Shown one piece after another: positions 7,431 to 24,948 of a stretch of DNA of 26,261 bases. The stretch is from a virus, in the IMG/VR virus record IMGVR_UViG_3300037247_000137, positions 1 to 26,261 of that record; one strand, written 5' to 3'. Below the pieces are notes generated by a model. It saw only the letters and a list, made by a program, of their open reading frames with translations, was not told where the DNA came from and made no database searches. Position 1 is the stretch's first letter, and every line of letters begins with the position of its first letter. A program made the position numbers and the translations under genes.

Positions 7431-8054
7431 TTACATTCTCCTGCGTCCAACTGTCATCATTTCAACCCTTTTATGATTAGCTAACAAACTGAAAAAGGTA
7501 TTCTTCTGAGATTCTTCCCTCACATCATCCTGCAGTACCATTCCCTGCCACAAGACTCCGGCCTTCACGACATTGGTAAATGCTTCCGGTATATCCCAAG
7601 TAGCAGAGTTAACAGTAAAGATGGTTGGTCGAGCGTAGTAGTGCCACTGAAAGGTATAGGTAGCATCTGGTGTAGGCCACAGGGTTATTTTAGTAGGACT
7701 AATAAGACCAACTGCTATGGGTTGGCCGGTAGCCCCGCCTCGCAGCCTGCGGGGAAGTCCCCCGGCAGACCAGGGTATTAGTTGTGGTTCCTCGGTTGAG
7801 CCATCGAGCAGATTAGCCTTATAGATAGCTAGAACCTTATTCTGGTCACCGGAGTCCATGCTGTATTCTTGGGTACTAGAGGAGATAGATATGTCAGTCC
7901 CAGCAGTAATAGCCCAATTCCACAGGTGGAACATGGATATTTCGGTCTGGATGAGATTAGCCATACGCAACTCGTCAGCGGCTGAGTAGGTTGTTGAACT
8001 CAGCTTAAGCGTTGAGGTTACGTAACTGGTGGCATTTGCAACCGTAAATGACAT
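7431..8054 (-). CDS. Head-tail adaptor-like protein, second copy (207 aa)
   Basis: ATG start at 8054 with AGGA about 9 bases upstream; that ribosome site lies opposite the plus-strand promoter of the adjacent gene. The protein starts with a short Ser/Thr stretch, then a helix pair around ADELRMANLIQTEISMFHLWNW, beta strands (EYSMDSGDQNKVLAIYKANL), a PTPDATYTFQWHYYARP segment and a C-terminal helix ending KRVEMMTVGRRRM. This helix-strand-FxxxYYARP order also appears in the next gene upstream and in podovirus adaptors, where the domain sits below the portal. Two adaptor-like genes in a row suggest an adaptor and a second tail-hub layer. Confidence 0.6.
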   Translation of the reverse strand: MSFTVANATSYVTSTLKLSSTTYSAADELRMANLIQTEISMFHLWNWAITAGTDISISSSTQEYSMDSGDQNKVLAIYKANLLDGSTEEPQLIPWSAGGLPRRLRGGATGQPIAVGLISPTKITLWPTPDATYTFQWHYYARPTIFTVNSATWDIPEAFTNVVKAGVLWQGMVLQDDVREESQKNTFFSLLANHKRVEMMTVGRRRM

Positions 8055-8055
8055 G

Positions 8056-8064
8056 TGTTATAGT
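8056..8064 (+). promoter_or_regulatory. Extended -10 promoter, leaderless, for plus-strand gene at 8071
   Basis: TG-T-TATAGT at 8056-8064 is an extended -10 element. TTGCAA at 8036-8041 lies exactly 17 bases upstream and matches four of six -35 consensus bases. The expected start point, 7 bases after the -10, is 8071, the A of the ATG. The transcript would be leaderless. A second plus-strand gene at 19305 has the same layout. Confidence 0.6.
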
Positions 8065-8070
8065 CCTGTC

Positions 8071-8268
8071 ATGGAATGCAACAGATGCAAAGAATCAATA
8101 GACAGATATGAATGTTGCTGGTATTGTGATAGCAAACTTTGTGGGGCTTGCTGGGAATTACTAGGACATTGCGGGCATCCCGAAGCAGAATATATAAATG
8201 AAATAAGTAGAAAGGCTGGGCCGAATGGACGAATATGGATATTTAACCACATAATAAACAAGAATTAA
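8071..8268 (+). CDS. Orphan plus-strand zinc-finger protein (65 aa)
   Basis: The ATG at 8071 is preferred over upstream in-frame starts because an extended -10 promoter ends 6 bases before it. The product is Cys-rich: CNRC at residues 3-6, a CC pair and CWYC at about 14-18, CGAC at 23-26 and a C-x-H near residue 33, a pattern like a RING, B-box or double zinc knuckle. The remainder is short and basic (EISRKAGPNGRI). Its stop codon shares bases with the convergent stop of the minus-strand gene at 8265. Strand, own promoter and tight fit suggest a later-inserted gene, perhaps early or constitutive, such as a host-takeover or regulatory protein. Function is not known. Confidence 0.7.
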   Translation: MECNRCKESIDRYECCWYCDSKLCGACWELLGHCGHPEAEYINEISRKAGPNGRIWIFNHIINKN

Positions 8269-9194
8269 GGTAGCCTAATTGGAATACTGCGTTGCTCTCT
8301 CAGGATACGGTGCTTCCAAAAGCGGTCATGGAACTTCAATCGCTTAGGTGGGAAATTAGGTGACTCTCTGATAAGCAACTCATGTATCCGCTTTTCAAAC
8401 TCGCGTTCCTGGTTCTGCTGATGCTGACCGGCATTGGGAGGGGCATTATCGTGCCTGCTTCTCCAAGACCAGTAATCAGCCAACCAGCCACTACGCAGCA
8501 GCCCAAAAGGTATCTGGGGAATAATGGTTACATCAGCATCATCCAGACTGGGCGTGCTCTCCAAGTATTGATAGAGGAAACCATGGGTTTCATCTGGTAT
8601 GGGATAAAGCTCTATCTGTTGATTATTAGAACTATCTCTACCCGCATAAGACCAGAAGCCGGGGTTGCCCAACGAGGGCCGATTGGGTAGGACAGTGGCA
8701 AGTTCTTCCTGGGATACTTCCGTAAGTAAGCCTGGATTTTCTATCCGAGCAATAGACATCACTTCACGGACATCGGTTGCCAGTGAGTAGAACCGCTGGA
8801 AGATTGTATAACCAATAACTGTTCCGGTAGGCCCCTCATAGTTTCTGTTGAGGGTAAGAGTATCTGGGTTGGCATCCCCAAAAGATGATATTAAATAGAA
8901 CTCACTGTCACCATCACGCCGAAAATATCTATTAGCAACCGAGGATGACCAGCCATTGGCATTGCTGGTAGTCTCAGTGACAGTCGTAGAACCATTGGTA
9001 GCCGTCACTGTTCCAGCAGTAATCTCAGCAATGGTCTGGAAGGTGGCTTCTTTAATTAAAAAGGGCCACGGTGCTCGTGTCAGAACAGACTCATATCGTT
9101 GCTGTAACCAGTCGAGAGCCAGCATGGGATTAGGTGGATTATCACCCGCTTCCATCTGGAGGGATTGTAAGAGGTCGCCTACTATAAGTGCCAT
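8265..9194 (-). CDS. Head-tail adaptor-like protein, first copy (309 aa)
   Basis: ATG start at 9194, one base after the stop of the tailspike gene. The N-terminus has an amphipathic helix (VGDLLQSLQMEAGD) and a WLQQRYESVLTRAPWPFLIKE segment, typical of podovirus adaptors that dock under the portal. A central beta region (GTVTATNGSTTVTETT, FYLISSFGD) is followed by IELYPIPDETHGFLYQYLES, the strand pair that also appears in the 7431-8054 protein. The C-terminal 60 residues are basic and helical with several Arg and Trp (EFEKRIHELLIRE). No enzyme motif. Confidence in adaptor-type role is moderate. Confidence 0.65.
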   Translation of the reverse strand: MALIVGDLLQSLQMEAGDNPPNPMLALDWLQQRYESVLTRAPWPFLIKEATFQTIAEITAGTVTATNGSTTVTETTSNANGWSSSVANRYFRRDGDSEFYLISSFGDANPDTLTLNRNYEGPTGTVIGYTIFQRFYSLATDVREVMSIARIENPGLLTEVSQEELATVLPNRPSLGNPGFWSYAGRDSSNNQQIELYPIPDETHGFLYQYLESTPSLDDADVTIIPQIPFGLLRSGWLADYWSWRSRHDNAPPNAGQHQQNQEREFEKRIHELLIRESPNFPPKRLKFHDRFWKHRILREQRSIPIRLP

Positions 9195-15302: not shown

Positions 15303-15946
15303 TAATCAGGAAATCTATCAAATCCATAGGCTATGCAATCAAAGGTAGTCAGTCCTGCCAATGCATCTCTGACCCGCAGGGTCAACCTCTGGCTGGTTCC
15401 GGCATCCAGTTTAATCCCAAAGGGCGGCATGAACTCTTTCAGGTCTACCACCGGCAACATGACTTCGGCTGTTCCTATAAAGTTGGTACCCCTGAAGGTG
15501 GTGGCAGCAGCACCGAAAGCCGGTCTTCCCAATGCCAAACGGGTAAAGTCGAAGTTAATCTTAAGGGCATCATGGATATCCACTTCGTCGCCTGAACCTC
15601 TGGTATAGAACAACCTGCAACCATTGGTTAGAGATATACCAAGGTCGCCAAACTCATTCTGAGCAAAGTTGCCTGTATCGGCTATAACGAAAGATAATAT
15701 CGTTATGAATCTATCATTGACGGAATCAGCCGCTACCCAGAAATTGACATTGGTGCTCGAACCATTAACAATCATATCGTTACTGTCGGATGAAGTCCCA
15801 CCATTGGTCAGAAATTGGCGGAAGGGTTTTATCTTCTGAGGTAGGAAGGCTGGTTCCGATAAAGGCTGGATGCATATTGCACCCCTAGGCGTTACTTCGG
15901 CTCTTTGACCAGAGCCAACATCCTGTATATGTACCGGTAGGGCCAA
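15302..15946 (-). CDS. Beta-rich virion surface protein (214 aa, TTG start)
   Basis: TTG at 15946 (no ATG occurs nearby), three bases after the upstream stop. The product begins MALPVHIQDVGSG and is mostly strands with Asn/Ser/Gly turns (SSTNVNFWVAADSVNDRF, GDLGISLTNGCRLFYTRG), ending YGFDRFPD. A single Cys pair is not evident. The C-terminal part contains a LRVRDALAGLTTFD strand-turn. It resembles neighbours at 15006 and 15950 in style. A virion surface or decoration role is likely. Confidence 0.55.
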   Translation of the reverse strand: MALPVHIQDVGSGQRAEVTPRGAICIQPLSEPAFLPQKIKPFRQFLTNGGTSSDSNDMIVNGSSTNVNFWVAADSVNDRFITILSFVIADTGNFAQNEFGDLGISLTNGCRLFYTRGSGDEVDIHDALKINFDFTRLALGRPAFGAAATTFRGTNFIGTAEVMLPVVDLKEFMPPFGIKLDAGTSQRLTLRVRDALAGLTTFDCIAYGFDRFPD

Positions 15947-15949
15947 TGG

Positions 15950-16531
15950 TTAAATACTCTGAAAATAGAACCTGATTACCGCACTAACTTCATCGGTAGT
16001 GCTGGTAGATGCCATCTCAAGTGTAAAGGCATTGTTTTTACCTAAAACAATAGCGCCATCTATTGGGTGAACGGTTACACCTACCCCCTCACTAAAGGTG
16101 CTAATAACAGTGCCGCCTGACAAGCCACCTATACCGTTGTTACTCTCATCCCATGAGTGGGCCGTGACATCGGCAACCTTACCGGATGCAAAATTGCCAT
16201 TCACCGGAGTAAGACTGTTATTATCAGCGATTGTGCCGATGACATTATTCTTGATAAATCTTATAATAGTTCCAGCCTCGTTTGAAGATACTAATATTTT
16301 CTGGATAATAAGTTCCTTAGTACTGGAATCATTCTGTAAGTGAAGTACGGCCCCAAAGTTAGTAGTTATGGTTAGCAGGTTGGCAGTAGTGGCAGAGTTA
16401 ATACTATAGGCTTCACCATCCAGGGCCTTTCTATGCTCATCTGATTCCGAGACTGATTCAACCCTGAGACGATTATTTTCATCTACTTGGGCCTGAAAAC
16501 CTTTCCCCGTACCATCGGTAATGGTAGGCAT
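15950..16531 (-). CDS. Beta-rich virion surface protein (193 aa)
   Basis: ATG at 16531 overlaps the stop of the small acidic gene as TAATG. The product begins MPTITDGTGKGFQAQVDENNRL, a motif set seen at the start of phage surface proteins with T-D-G-T-G-x-G, then strands with Asn/Thr/Ser-rich turns (TTNFGAVLHLQND, AGTIIRFIKNN) and ends EVSAVIRFYFQSI. No Cys and no membrane segment. A decoration or short-fibre role is inferred from composition and position. Confidence 0.55.
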   Translation of the reverse strand: MPTITDGTGKGFQAQVDENNRLRVESVSESDEHRKALDGEAYSINSATTANLLTITTNFGAVLHLQNDSSTKELIIQKILVSSNEAGTIIRFIKNNVIGTIADNNSLTPVNGNFASGKVADVTAHSWDESNNGIGGLSGGTVISTFSEGVGVTVHPIDGAIVLGKNNAFTLEMASTSTTDEVSAVIRFYFQSI

Positions 16532-18098: not shown

Positions 18099-18227
18099 TC
18101 AATCTCCTATAGGGACACATACGGGCGTACTGGTCAAAAGACTTTCCGTTACCGCTGTGCCTGGGGGAATTCCACCCCCACTTACCCTAGATTTACCCGC
18201 TATTAATACTCCCCATAACGGGGTAAT
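18099..18227 (-). CDS. Possible small protein without an NTG start (about 34-42 aa)
   Basis: After the TGA of the zinc-knuckle ORF the same frame stays open for 44 codons and ends TGA directly before the ATG of the beta-helix gene. It reads ITPLWGVLIAGKSR, then a Gly-rich SGGGIPPGTAVTES and STPVCVPIGD. No ATG, GTG or early TTG is in frame. An ATT lies at 18227, and an ATA at 18203 has GGGGAG 5 bases upstream. It could be a gene with a rare start, a readthrough tail of the preceding ORF, or chance. Confidence 0.3.
   Translation of the reverse strand: MTPLWGVLIAGKSRVSGGGIPPGTAVTESLLTSTPVCVPIGD
18162..18180. repeat. GC-rich inverted repeat between capsid and beta-helix genes
   Basis: TGGGGG at 18162-18167 pairs with CCCCCA at 18175-18180 around a 7-base loop. 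A second, weaker CCCC/GGGG pair flanks 18215-18219. Neither is followed by a T-run on either strand, so a classical terminator is not supported. It might slow ribosomes or polymerase between the highly expressed capsid gene and the next gene. Confidence 0.4.
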
Positions 18228-18233
18228 ACTTAC

Positions 18234-18341
18234 TCAGGAGAGTTTGAGAATTACTTGTTTGCAATAATAACAAACAAGTTCTTGTGGCCTATCATTACCA
18301 TGAAAGAGATAGACCTTTACTTTATGTTTACAGTTACGCAC
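18234..18341 (-). CDS. Tiny zinc-knuckle protein (35 aa)
   Basis: A short frame overlapping the end of the capsid gene by 8 bases from a GTG at 18341; a TTG at 18353 with GGGG upstream is an alternative start. The product has NCKH near its start and CYYC at about 24-27, with a hydrophobic stretch (KVYLFHG) between them and ending VILKLS. The Cys-x-His ... Cys-x2-Cys spacing is that of small phage zinc-binding proteins. The inverted repeat at 18253-18279 lies inside it. Overlap and zinc motif make it likely but not certain. Confidence 0.5.
   Translation of the reverse strand: MRNCKHKVKVYLFHGNDRPQELVCYYCKQVILKLS
18253..18279. repeat. Inverted repeat downstream of the major capsid gene
   Basis: ACTTGTTTG at 18253-18261 is perfectly complementary to CAAACAAGT at 18271-18279, with a 9-base AT-rich loop. 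It begins about 55 bases after the end of the capsid gene and falls inside the zinc-knuckle frame. There is no T-run after the stem on the minus strand, so it may be an mRNA-stabilising or processing hairpin, or incidental. Confidence 0.5.
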
Positions 18342-19266
18342 CGGCACTGGCAAATATCCCCACGCCGTTGTTCACCCAGTCTACATCAAATCTTCCCCAA
18401 GCGGCTGTTTTTAGGGTTCTAGTATCAAAGTCCACGTCAGTTTCAACCGTGAACTTCTCCCTTTCCAGGAAGATTAGGCCGTGGTCTTCTTTCGGGCCAA
18501 CTAACACCCATGAGTCAATATCAGTCAGGTAATCATTTGGGGGTAGCTGTCTCAGGACGCCACCCTCAAAGAAGCTCTTACTGACGTTGGTAGCCCGGTT
18601 CGCGGTATCTGAACGGTCGGTTGATTGAAGGACTTCGGCAATATCGAACCAGTTATCCGGTGGCGACATAATCACTTCCGGCTTCAGGTTCAAACGCTTG
18701 CCTCGGCCATCCCTGAAATTGCGAAAGTCAATGAAGGCTGTCCTTAAGGATGTATGTGAGAAGTCGGCATCGGTAGCCAACCTATTACGGAAGGTGACAC
18801 CATCTTCTCTCAGGTGGGAAGTGCTGAATAGCACGACCCCGTCAGCGCCGGTAATGGCACCGCTGTAAGCGTTGTTGATAACATCAGCACTTAGGATGTT
18901 TCTGGATTCAGTCCATGACCAACCCAGGTCAGATGCCATATTCTTCAAAGCACCCAGGCGGTCATCATCAAACGCTAGGCGAGAAATCCTGAAACCCAGC
19001 GAGTATTGCAAGGGGGTGAGGGTACGGTCAAAGCCCTGGATAGCGGAATCATACGTAACACTGGAACCTTCATCAGTCTCAACGAAAAGTCCAAACTTAG
19101 CAATACTGGTATACTGTTCATGTGGCCGGTCAGTGGATTCCATTCTAAATACATCCTGGAACCATTCGGGCCGACGCTTCCTACCGGATTCTACCAGTCG
19201 CCTAAGAAACGGCAACGCTGCGGTAGTCTCCCAGTCGGGAAACTTCAATCTAGTCATTAAAGCCAT
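18334..19266 (-). CDS. Major capsid protein (310 aa)
   Basis: ATG at 19266; AGGAG at 19279-19283 is 12 bases upstream. The sequence begins MALMTRLKFPDWETT and has features of the Mu-type/HK97-fold major head protein: RRPEWFQDVFRMES, GFRISRLAFDDDRLG (the spine helix region), a DGVVLFSTSHLRED loop, LKPEVIMSPPDNWFD and a C-terminal TAAWGRFDVDW. Length 310 is usual for this family without an attached scaffold domain. It lies after scaffold-like and decoration-like genes, the expected head order. It forms the shell of the virion. The +strand gene at 19305 is wedged between it and the next minus-strand gene. Confidence 0.9.
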   Translation of the reverse strand: MALMTRLKFPDWETTAALPFLRRLVESGRKRRPEWFQDVFRMESTDRPHEQYTSIAKFGLFVETDEGSSVTYDSAIQGFDRTLTPLQYSLGFRISRLAFDDDRLGALKNMASDLGWSWTESRNILSADVINNAYSGAITGADGVVLFSTSHLREDGVTFRNRLATDADFSHTSLRTAFIDFRNFRDGRGKRLNLKPEVIMSPPDNWFDIAEVLQSTDRSDTANRATNVSKSFFEGGVLRQLPPNDYLTDIDSWVLVGPKEDHGLIFLEREKFTVETDVDFDTRTLKTAAWGRFDVDWVNNGVGIFASAGA

Positions 19267-19289
19267 AGTGTAATATTTCTCCTAATTTG

Positions 19290-19298
19290 TGGTACAAT
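19290..19298 (+). promoter_or_regulatory. Extended -10 promoter, leaderless, for plus-strand gene at 19305
   Basis: TG-G-TACAAT at 19290-19298 is an extended -10 element. Its expected start point, 7 bases downstream, is 19305, the A of the ATG. No good -35 is present at 16-18 bases. It repeats the layout of the promoter at 8056-8064. Confidence 0.55.
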
Positions 19299-19304
19299 TA
19301 CCCC

Positions 19305-19487
19305 ATGAAAGATAGAATTATTGAGTGGGGCAGCCATGAACGTCTAATCCTTGATAAAGTTTTTGGCCCTCTTTGTGTCCCCAATATTGCAGTCTCGATA
19401 CAAAAGGGAGACTTGGTAATTGAGGTTCAACAAGAGGACGAGAACGGGGATTGGACAGATACATGGGCTGAGATTTACAGACGCTAG
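19305..19487 (+). CDS. Orphan plus-strand small protein (60 aa)
   Basis: ATG at 19305, 6 bases after an extended -10. The product starts MKDRIIEWG, has LILDKVFGPLC, then alternating strand residues (NIAVSIQKGDLVIEVQQED) and ends TDTWAEIYRR. No Cys pair, membrane or nucleotide motif. Its TAG directly abuts the convergent TAA of the decoration-like gene. Such placement between the capsid and decoration genes, on the opposite strand with its own promoter, suggests an insertion with autonomous expression. Function is unknown; a small regulatory or host-modifying protein is the simplest guess. Confidence 0.65.
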   Translation: MKDRIIEWGSHERLILDKVFGPLCVPNIAVSIQKGDLVIEVQQEDENGDWTDTWAEIYRR

Positions 19488-20012
19488 TTAGACACCAGCA
19501 GTTGCGTTTGCATACTGGCGGTCATTCATAAGAACGAACCAGCGGGCGTTGGTTAAGGTGCCATCGTTATCAATATAGGGAGCTACCTGATAAAGATGTA
19601 AGTCAAGCGCGGCATTGTTAGCGGTGTCAGAGTTAATCTCCATAATGGAATTAGGCGACGTTGCCGAGGCCACGCCATTGACAATTACATCAGCCCCCGA
19701 ACCCTCTGCCGCCGTACCCATAGCTCCGCCATCGCCATCTTCCTGTGCTTCAAAGAGGGTATCCTCAAAGGCAAGAGTTACTGGATGACTGGTTGCAGTA
19801 GAGGCAGCTCCAAAGGAACCGCAGGAACCTAATACCAAATCATCCTGGTCATATTGTTCAATCACATCCAAAGCCCCAGTGAGGGTTACCAGGTCACCAA
19901 TACCAAGAATCACGCCATCACCAACGGGCTTAGTATAAATTCGCGTAATCATGTCTCCGCCACCCAGACTCTTCAGGGGGTCGAAACCATGAGGCGCATC
20001 AACATTTGCCAT
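19488..20012 (-). CDS. Capsid decoration-type protein (174 aa)
   Basis: ATG at 20012 has AGGAG about 10 bases upstream; an upstream TTG at 20036 lies before that ribosome site. The product begins MANVDAPHGFDPLKSLGGGD, a start seen in small head-associated proteins encoded next to phage capsid genes, then strands with Asp/Gly turns (VILGIGDLVTLTGAL, DDLVLGSCGSFGAAS) and a C-terminal strand pair (RWFVLMNDRQYANAT). It probably binds and stabilises the capsid shell. Adjacent to the major capsid gene, on the expected side. Confidence 0.7.
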   Translation of the reverse strand: MANVDAPHGFDPLKSLGGGDMITRIYTKPVGDGVILGIGDLVTLTGALDVIEQYDQDDLVLGSCGSFGAASTATSHPVTLAFEDTLFEAQEDGDGGAMGTAAEGSGADVIVNGVASATSPNSIMEINSDTANNAALDLHLYQVAPYIDNDGTLTNARWFVLMNDRQYANATAGV

Positions 20013-20014
20013 AG

Positions 20015-20125
20015 TTATTTTTCTCCTAACATCCAATCCAGGCAGGACTGGATACCTAATAGAATTAGAATTAGTTTAATTACCCATAGCCAGAATCGGT
20101 ATGAGTAGAAGTGTTTGGTTATAAT
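20015..20125 (-). CDS. Possible transmembrane peptide without an NTG start (about 36 aa)
   Basis: After the TAA of the zinc protein at 20129 the same frame runs open for 37 codons, ending TAA two bases before the next ATG. It reads ITKHFYSYRFWLWVI, a hydrophobic KLILILLGIQSC and ends DWMLGEK; about 15 residues could cross a membrane. The only in-frame NTG is an ATG near the end; ATT (20125) and ATA (20122) are the first possible rare starts. AT-rich DNA favours such hydrophobic frames, so chance is a real possibility. Confidence 0.25.
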   Translation of the reverse strand: MITKHFYSYRFWLWVIKLILILLGIQSCLDWMLGEK

Positions 20126-20128
20126 TTG

Positions 20129-20452
20129 TTAGAGCTTATTCTCGTAATGAAATTTCGTTTTGTGATACTGGGAATCAGTTCTATGTTTCTTGTCAGAGCA
20201 GGGAACACAGAAGAAAGCAAACGTCTTGGCATCCACTACCCAAGTAAGATACCCACCAAGATATATAGGCTGGTTACATTCATAGCAAAGATAATTATCT
20301 CCTTGCTTGAAGTTATCAAACCTGAATTGCTTCCGCATGTTCTCGCTGCGGTCATACCAGCAGTTGGCACATAGGTCGGCAACTATTTCTCCATCTAGGC
20401 AGTATCTGAAACAGGTTTTACACTTGGTTTTGAGGGGGTTAAGTAAGCGCAT
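20129..20452 (-). CDS. Zinc-binding protein with several Cys knuckles (107 aa)
   Basis: ATG at 20452, two bases after the upstream stop. The product carries CKTC at 11-14, Cys 18, CANC at 28-31, CYEC at 56-59 and CVPC at 82-85, enough for two zinc sites, with basic residues between them (RSENMRKQFRFDNFKQ) and a basic C-terminus (KKHRTDSQYHKTKFHYE). The CYEC/CVPC half looks like a zinc ribbon. It lies between head genes, so a protein or nucleic-acid binding factor in head assembly or packaging is possible; no known family was identified. Confidence 0.65.
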   Translation of the reverse strand: MRLLNPLKTKCKTCFRYCLDGEIVADLCANCWYDRSENMRKQFRFDNFKQGDNYLCYECNQPIYLGGYLTWVVDAKTFAFFCVPCSDKKHRTDSQYHKTKFHYENKL

Positions 20453-22892: not shown

Positions 22893-24948
22893 GATTAGCC
22901 CCACCAGTATTTAGAATACTTGAGAGTTGAGAGGCAGGGTCAACCGGGGATTGCTGGCCAGGCTGTTGTTCTAAAGCACCGCCTAGTTGCTGACCTTGGC
23001 CTAGCTGAGCCTGTTGAGGCTGTTGTTGTGTTTGCGGGGTAAGGCCACCGGCCCCAAGACCACCACGCTTAACCACCTGCTTATGCTCGTCTATGTGGCC
23101 TGCTATCCGGCCTAACACACCGGGATTCTGTCTCAGGAGAGCCTGGGCCTCATCTGACTGCAATCTATCCATCAAGTCCTGGTGGACAGCTATATGCCTG
23201 GAATGGTTGTCCTGGGGATTAGGGTCAACGTCCTCACCCTGCAATAGACGTATGTTTTCCTTGGCCGGGTCTTCTGACTGCTTCATCTCAGAGGCATCAG
23301 GTATGAGGGCTGCTACATCAGGGAAGCCAATCTTTTCTAAGAAACGCTTGAATAGTGCCATTGTTACTTGCTGGATGCCTACTTGTCCTGACAGGGCTAG
23401 TCCTTGCATAAGTTCTCGAGTCTTCTGTTGGCGGTTACTGAGAGCGGTAAGCGGCCCAATATCAAAGTCGTAAGACCCTTGCATATCTTCTTCAGTCATT
23501 GTGTCGCCAGGGTCTTCTTCGGTAACCCGGAAGAATACCGGCTTCTCTAGGAAACGCTTATCCAGTTCCCAGATACGCTTTAGCAGTTCTCGTAGATTCT
23601 CTCTTTCCAGCCTAATATCCAGTAAGAGTCTTACGTTGGACTCGGCCTGAAGTAGTTGCTGCTGACCTAATGTTCTAGGAGCGTTGGGTTGGGATAGCTG
23701 TCTTCCAAGCTGCGGGTCATTCAGGGCAGTTAATCTTTCCGCAAAGGAAGTCAACTCTTGCATCAAGGTTATGTAAGGCCCCATGTTAATCTGACCCAAG
23801 GGAACAACCTTGATGTCCTGCGGGTTAGGAGTGAAAATAACGGTATTTGGTTCTATTTTTATCTTGTCCCAGTTGATGCCAGCCGAAGGAGAGGCGAAAA
23901 TAACTGTGCCAACCGCGCCTTCAGCTGCACTCACAGCCAAGGTATGTAAGGCATCCATCTCGGTACTGATTGGCTCCAGTAACTCACACAGACCGGAACC
24001 CCAGAACTGATTGACGTTCATAATGGCATCGGACTTGATAAAGGGCCGTCTGCCATCAGGGAAAGACTCAACTAGAAGACTTACGCCTAAGACTTTCTTT
24101 AACTCAGGCTGGTAGAAAGCTACCACATCCTGACTGCGTTCTAGGTCGTTGGTGCCCTTCTCGTCTATACGGAACTTACCAAACCAGTTGTAGAAGGTAA
24201 CTCTGGTTTCACGGCCTTGTGGGACTTCCGGCACACCCTGTTGCTCTTTCTTCTCTTGGAAGACATCACTGTTAAGCTCGGTGGCCTGGAAAGTATGCTC
24301 GGAGATTCTGCGCAGGTTATCAATATTATCTTTAATTAACTTGTCATCGAGCTTGCCGCTGTCAGACATATCAAGTATTTCATCAATGTCCAACCTAACA
24401 ATACGTATGAAGTGGTCAGCATTATCAATATCTTTGGCAGTTGCCGGTACCACCCAGTCTTCCAGGTCTTCTACCACTAAGTCAGGCCCGTCGTAGTCTA
24501 TGACTTCCTCGATAACCTCTTGTACTTCTGTTCGGGTAAAGGGTACCTGGGCCGGTAGGCCATCTACTATCTGTTCCTCAAAGCCGGGTACTTCCTCGGG
24601 AACAAACTTCTTAACTTGTCGCTTGCGGGTTACCCAGGGAACAAAACCAATCGAGGTTCCCATAATGCTTTTCTGTAACAGGTAGGGATAGAGCTTCTTG
24701 AACAGCTTGAGGCTGACCTTGATGCGCCAGTTCATCCATTTCTTTACTTTCTTGGCGCGCTTGACATCGCTCTCCCCAATCGGGGTGACGGATATTTCAG
24801 ACTCTTCCCCTAGTAAAACATCTAGTTCTTTAGCCAACTTAGCCAGTAGCTGCCACAGGATTAGCGGGATGGAGAAGTTAGACCTTTCTTCCTGGGGTAT
24901 TCCATGAACATCTGAGGCTGCGCGCGCTAGCCTGGAATACCGCTTCAT
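22885..24948 (-). CDS. Portal protein (687 aa)
   Basis: The ATG at 24948 has AAAGGA about 8 bases upstream. The sequence is that of a podovirus portal: helices with SIPLILWQLLAKLAKELDVL and VTPIGESDVKRAKKVKKW, KLYPYLLQKSIMGTSIGF, the DIDEILDMSDSG segment, YNWFGKFRID, a VVPLGQINMGPYIT helix, and a long Gln-rich C-terminus (about residues 640-680). It forms the ring through which DNA enters and leaves the head, and docks terminase and adaptors. The frame stays open for a further 43 codons upstream (to the TGA at 25078) with no ATG, GTG or TTG in it; the real N-terminus may lie in that region. Confidence 0.85.
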   Translation of the reverse strand: MKRYSRLARAASDVHGIPQEERSNFSIPLILWQLLAKLAKELDVLLGEESEISVTPIGESDVKRAKKVKKWMNWRIKVSLKLFKKLYPYLLQKSIMGTSIGFVPWVTRKRQVKKFVPEEVPGFEEQIVDGLPAQVPFTRTEVQEVIEEVIDYDGPDLVVEDLEDWVVPATAKDIDNADHFIRIVRLDIDEILDMSDSGKLDDKLIKDNIDNLRRISEHTFQATELNSDVFQEKKEQQGVPEVPQGRETRVTFYNWFGKFRIDEKGTNDLERSQDVVAFYQPELKKVLGVSLLVESFPDGRRPFIKSDAIMNVNQFWGSGLCELLEPISTEMDALHTLAVSAAEGAVGTVIFASPSAGINWDKIKIEPNTVIFTPNPQDIKVVPLGQINMGPYITLMQELTSFAERLTALNDPQLGRQLSQPNAPRTLGQQQLLQAESNVRLLLDIRLERENLRELLKRIWELDKRFLEKPVFFRVTEEDPGDTMTEEDMQGSYDFDIGPLTALSNRQQKTRELMQGLALSGQVGIQQVTMALFKRFLEKIGFPDVAALIPDASEMKQSEDPAKENIRLLQGEDVDPNPQDNHSRHIAVHQDLMDRLQSDEAQALLRQNPGVLGRIAGHIDEHKQVVKRGGLGAGGLTPQTQQQPQQAQLGQGQQLGGALEQQPGQQSPVDPASQLSSILNTGGANLG

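Follow-up and report, generated by a model that had tools for sequence, protein, structure and literature searches.

How does a gene that lies backwards in a tightly packed phage operon come to be expressed? The question is raised by a small open reading frame, ORF A, in an IMG/VR virus record of 26,261 bases (the window, analyzed over its whole length) whose terminase, portal, capsid and adaptor genes all lie on the minus strand. ORF A is encoded on the plus strand, antisense to this late operon, and runs for 60 aa from an ATG at 19305 to a TAG at 19487. On one side lies the major capsid protein gene (18334-19266, minus strand; PF25209, 5e-10; phrog_371, 3e-12), whose ATG occupies 19264-19266. 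On the other side, the ORF A TAG abuts the TTA stop (19488-19490) of a convergent minus-strand gene at 19488-20012, which carries the Shine-Dalgarno (SD) sequence AGGAG and whose position is conserved in L003, a close relative of this phage. The first-pass annotation had labeled the latter a decoration gene, but it has no match in Pfam or PHROGs to confirm the name; it is duplicated in tandem in L003 (L009:15377-15889 and 15892-16413) and single in the window. Downstream of the capsid gene, the gap contains a perfect 9-bp inverted repeat at 18253-18279 (ACTTGTTTG/CAAACAAGT), which has no T run and whose minus-strand fold is better than those of shuffled sequences (z -3.0). No such repeat was found at the matching place in L003.

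Immediately before ORF A is an extended -10 promoter-like element on the plus strand, TGG-TACAAT (19290-19298), whose function we infer. It is composed of TGG at 19290-19292 and TACAAT at 19293-19298, and is followed by TACCCC at 19299-19304 and the ATG at 19305. The arrangement described at first pass, a 60-aa plus-strand gene with TGG-TACAAT, a 6-nt gap and an abutting convergent stop, is thus borne out by the coordinates. RNA polymerase starts approximately 7 nt after a -10 element and prefers a purine, and so, with a 6-nt gap, transcription would begin at the A of the ATG; any leaderless gene should have approximately this spacing. ORF A has two features expected of a leaderless gene, namely a -10 placed for transcription to start at the start codon and no SD in the upstream 20 nt, ATTTGTGGTACAATTACCCC. 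Many co-directional genes, including both neighbors of ORF A, have AGGA-type SDs, whereas ORF A and a second antisense ORF discussed below (ORF B) do not. No recognizable -35 accompanies TGG-TACAAT, although extended -10 elements work without one.

The same junction is empty in related phages. In L003 (a contig of 37,326 bases whose capsid and portal are 94% and 90% identical to those of the window), the same intact neighbors are separated only by 28 nt, CCAGTAATTGCCCTTTCTTTTTATCTTT, which precede the shared AGGAGAAATATTACACTATG. Relative to L003, insert A occupies approximately 19285-19487 on the plus strand (boundaries ± about 5 nt), and the AGGAG of the capsid gene is kept beside it. In L002 (capsid 70% identical) the two genes abut as TAAATG, and L004 also lacks the insert. 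Nor is an antisense insert present at this junction in annotated phages whose capsids are related (Caulobacter phage GB2A, MW202796). At the site of ORF B, the flanking genes of L003 are 3 bp apart. Because L003 lacks ORFs A and B at otherwise conserved junctions, we regard both as presence/absence inserts. The simpler reading of these junctions is that insert A was gained in the lineage of the window, a polarity that is itself deduced; loss of ORF A in L003 is a possible alternative, as one close relative shows the empty site. The proteins scanned, from incomplete contigs, include no integrase or repressor. Early genes of L003 lie on the strand opposite its late genes, and inserts A and B share this early strand.

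Several features of the reading frame itself suggest that ORF A codes for protein. Its codon score is 0.22 bits/codon in its own frame and negative in the other five, compared to a 5-95% range of 0.08-0.45 for 60-codon segments of the phage's genes, and it lies above the scores of 95% of antisense frames (0.039). From composition, a frame this long (59 open codons) would stay open with a chance of approximately 1.4%, and the frame fills the insert from promoter through stop. Homologues were found neither in IMG/VR, GTDB genome contigs, plasmids and INPHARED phages nor in Pfam, PHROGs, PADLOC and PDB, and a search of Rfam gave no match. As a result, selection is not measurable and homology gives no clue to function. 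AlphaFold, run on the single sequence, suggests a helix and three strands with low confidence (pLDDT 55.5), and ORF A matches no DNA-binding family. From its coding character, we conclude that ORF A is probably a genuine small accessory gene, with a presumed benefit to the phage.

Classical morons carry a terminator and are expressed from the prophage apart from the lytic genes. ORF A resembles such elements in being an extra gene that is absent at the same junction in relatives (L003 and L002). Its candidate promoter has the extended -10 and no -35. It has no terminator of its own: no terminator-like site follows it within 18200-20200, and the downstream fold is no better than those of shuffled sequences. 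Its transcript should therefore run antisense into 19488-20012. ORF A would work like a moron but, having neither SD nor terminator, is a variant rather than a textbook example. In phage P22, the late-region ORFan moron pid is likewise transcribed against its neighbors, but it has a canonical SD and a 3' Rho-independent terminator (PMC3573128). ORF A lacks both, and its mRNA is predicted to have no leader.

Leaderless phage genes have precedents. The cI and cro genes of PY54 yield leaderless mRNAs, with 5' ends mapped in that phage, and lambda cI is cited there as leaderless too (PMC4488713). In these genes, as predicted for ORF A, the promoter is placed so that the mRNA begins at AUG; however, they encode immunity-region regulators, whereas ORF A is an accessory ORF inside a structural operon and is known from sequence. 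In Deinococcus, TANNNT adjacent to ORFs drives leaderless genes, and the -10-adjacent ORFs of Deinococcus-Thermus resemble ORF A in having TANNNT beside the start codon and no ribosome-binding site (PMC12340547). There the arrangement is a genome-wide host expression mode, whereas in the window it marks two antisense inserts of a phage whose other genes often have SDs, and ORFs A and B add a TG extension to the TANNNT. Passenger genes are already known, but such a minimal leaderless-type start signal on one is unusual.

ORF B (8071-8268, plus strand) codes for a 65-aa Cys-rich protein (CxxC ... CWYC ... LCxxCW ... GHCGHPEAE). Its start region reads TGT-TATAGT-CCTGTC-ATG(8071), such that the extended -10 (TGT-TATAGT, 8056-8064, plus strand, with TTGCAA 17 nt upstream) stands at the same 6-nt spacing as at ORF A and no SD is present. 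The stop codons of ORF B and of the convergent gene overlap, and the ORF B -10 begins 5 nt from the divergent start codon. The complement of its promoter and start (8059-8073), CATGACAGGACTATA, contains AGGA and may serve the divergent gene at 7431-8054 as an SD. This gene and the one at 8265-9194 both match Pfam SU10_adaptor (PF24175), and so ORF B lies between what appears to be a tandem pair of paralogues. The codon score of ORF B is -0.07, versus 0.22 for ORF A. Relatives of the ORF B protein are encoded by six IMG/VR contigs (52-61% identity, with L094 at 61%), and none were found in bacterial genomes. All these relatives are co-directional with their neighbors and at least four have AGGAG- or GGAGG-like leaders; antisense orientation and a leaderless-type start are found in the window copy only. 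Since the relatives are co-directional and mostly SD-led, leaderlessness presumably arose with or after insertion. Outside the -10, the 45 nt upstream of ORFs A and B match at 11 of 45 positions, which is chance level. The best reading of these sequences is that ORFs A and B were acquired separately and converged on a common geometry, rather than being copies of a shared cassette, and their spacing would be equal because a leaderless start requires it.

The motif TGNTANANT-N6-ATG matches the window twice, at ORFs A and B only. Dinucleotide shuffles of the window yield a mean of 0.40 matches and reach two in 5 of 100 cases, a count that leaves aside that both window matches open real minority-strand ORFs. 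Across the fetched loci, the exact motif precedes 6 of 32,766 ATGs (0.018%), and the looser TGNTANNNT at 5-8 nt spacing precedes 0.47%. The 38 co-directional start sites listed in the window all lack the pattern. At this looser rate, the chance of finding two in two (0.47% squared) is about 2e-5, an optimistic value because the pattern was picked after seeing both cases. We consider coincidence at both ORFs unlikely. When 83 flanked minority-strand ORFs from 86 contigs are compared, an extended and near-consensus -10 is present only at ORFs A and B, and one other minority-strand ORF, of 309 aa, matches the motif at an internal ATG. Thus, the search of related phages that had been proposed as a check adds no further case among the 86 contigs. 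In L016-L085, matches approximately 6.2 kb upstream of the capsid gene were set aside as one inherited coincidence rather than independent cases; they sit on the reverse strand of an apparently conserved coding gene.

The first-pass annotation had viewed the shared geometry as a recurring mode of gene acquisition, wherein leaderless units land in tight gaps and spare the neighboring genes. Part of this view stands, in that there are two independent inserts with intact neighbors, both missing from L003, and each has an extended -10 at leaderless spacing and no SD. Moreover, L003 has an antisense insert of its own, insert C (contig 23221-23574; L010:5895-6248, minus strand), which is absent from the window and encodes a 117-aa protein with a signal-peptide-like beginning and a weak DUF5658 match. 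Comparison of these contigs supports recurrent antisense insertion. Insert C, however, probably has a different promoter and a leader of about 38 nt, as implied by its best promoter match (TTAACA-16-TATAAT, 11/12, sigma-70-like), which lies about 45 nt upstream. A near-leaderless candidate for insert C, TTGACA-17-TACTCT, was dropped because TTAACA-16-TATAAT scores 11/12 further upstream. With this differing geometry, and with no other surveyed contig among the 86 adding a case, two cases, both from a single phage, speak for a recurrent leaderless mode, and a dedicated mechanism of acquisition is not supported. Insertion of ready-made leaderless gene units into phage gaps would account for two inserts of one phage having the same geometry and fitting precisely between neighboring genes, but we find this very improbable. 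The inserts share no ends, no target-site duplication is longer than expected by chance, the relatives of ORF B are mostly SD-led and co-directional, and the regions upstream of ORFs A and B are unrelated outside the -10. The polymerase fixes the spacing, and insertions that damage late genes do not persist; the pattern calls for no mechanism of acquisition.

ORF A might instead be translated from a longer transcript with its start inside the capsid gene, and would then be neither leaderless nor dependent on TACAAT. This reading would fit the missing -35 and an in-frame TTG at 19287 that would give 66 aa, but we judge it quite unlikely, given that the sole plus-strand promoter-like match upstream of ORF A in 18200-20200 is about 1 kb off (18267-18295), that neither the ATG nor the TTG is preceded by an SD, and that the extended -10 is at exactly leaderless spacing. 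It is also unlikely that ORF A or its promoter is a chance pattern, whether in a neutral insert or in a source of antisense RNA only. Phage-like codon bias in the frame of ORF A only, an open frame that occupies the insert from promoter to stop, and the membership of ORF B, with the same geometry, in a real protein family all speak against chance, even though ORF A is short at 60 codons and lacks homologues, and a motif chosen after the fact also occurs twice in some shuffles.

We favor a different explanation, which we consider probable: ORF A is a moron-like accessory gene, backwards in the late operon of an uncultured tailed phage, that is expressed leaderless by host RNA polymerase and shares its geometry with ORF B by convergence. 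Host RNA polymerase would recognize the extended -10 of ORF A (TGGTACAAT) and initiate approximately 7 nt further on, with the A of the ATG as the first nucleotide of a leaderless mRNA. Ribosomes would start directly on this mRNA. ORF A would thereby be expressed independently of the late transcription program, and the common geometry of ORFs A and B would reflect convergence on the most compact set of signals that a tight gap can hold. A broader proposal, that antisense arrivals in the late operons of this phage group repeatedly gain an extended -10 at the start codon, leaderless initiation being the cheapest route to expression, we regard as rather doubtful.

These observations bear on how a newly arrived gene gets expressed inside a tightly packed phage operon. 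If the favored explanation is confirmed, two unrelated inserts make do with an extended -10 of 9 bp at the start codon, with no leader, SD or terminator. Genes of this kind would escape gene-finding programs that give weight to ribosome-binding sites and to consistency of strand, and their start signals would permit expression outside the late program.
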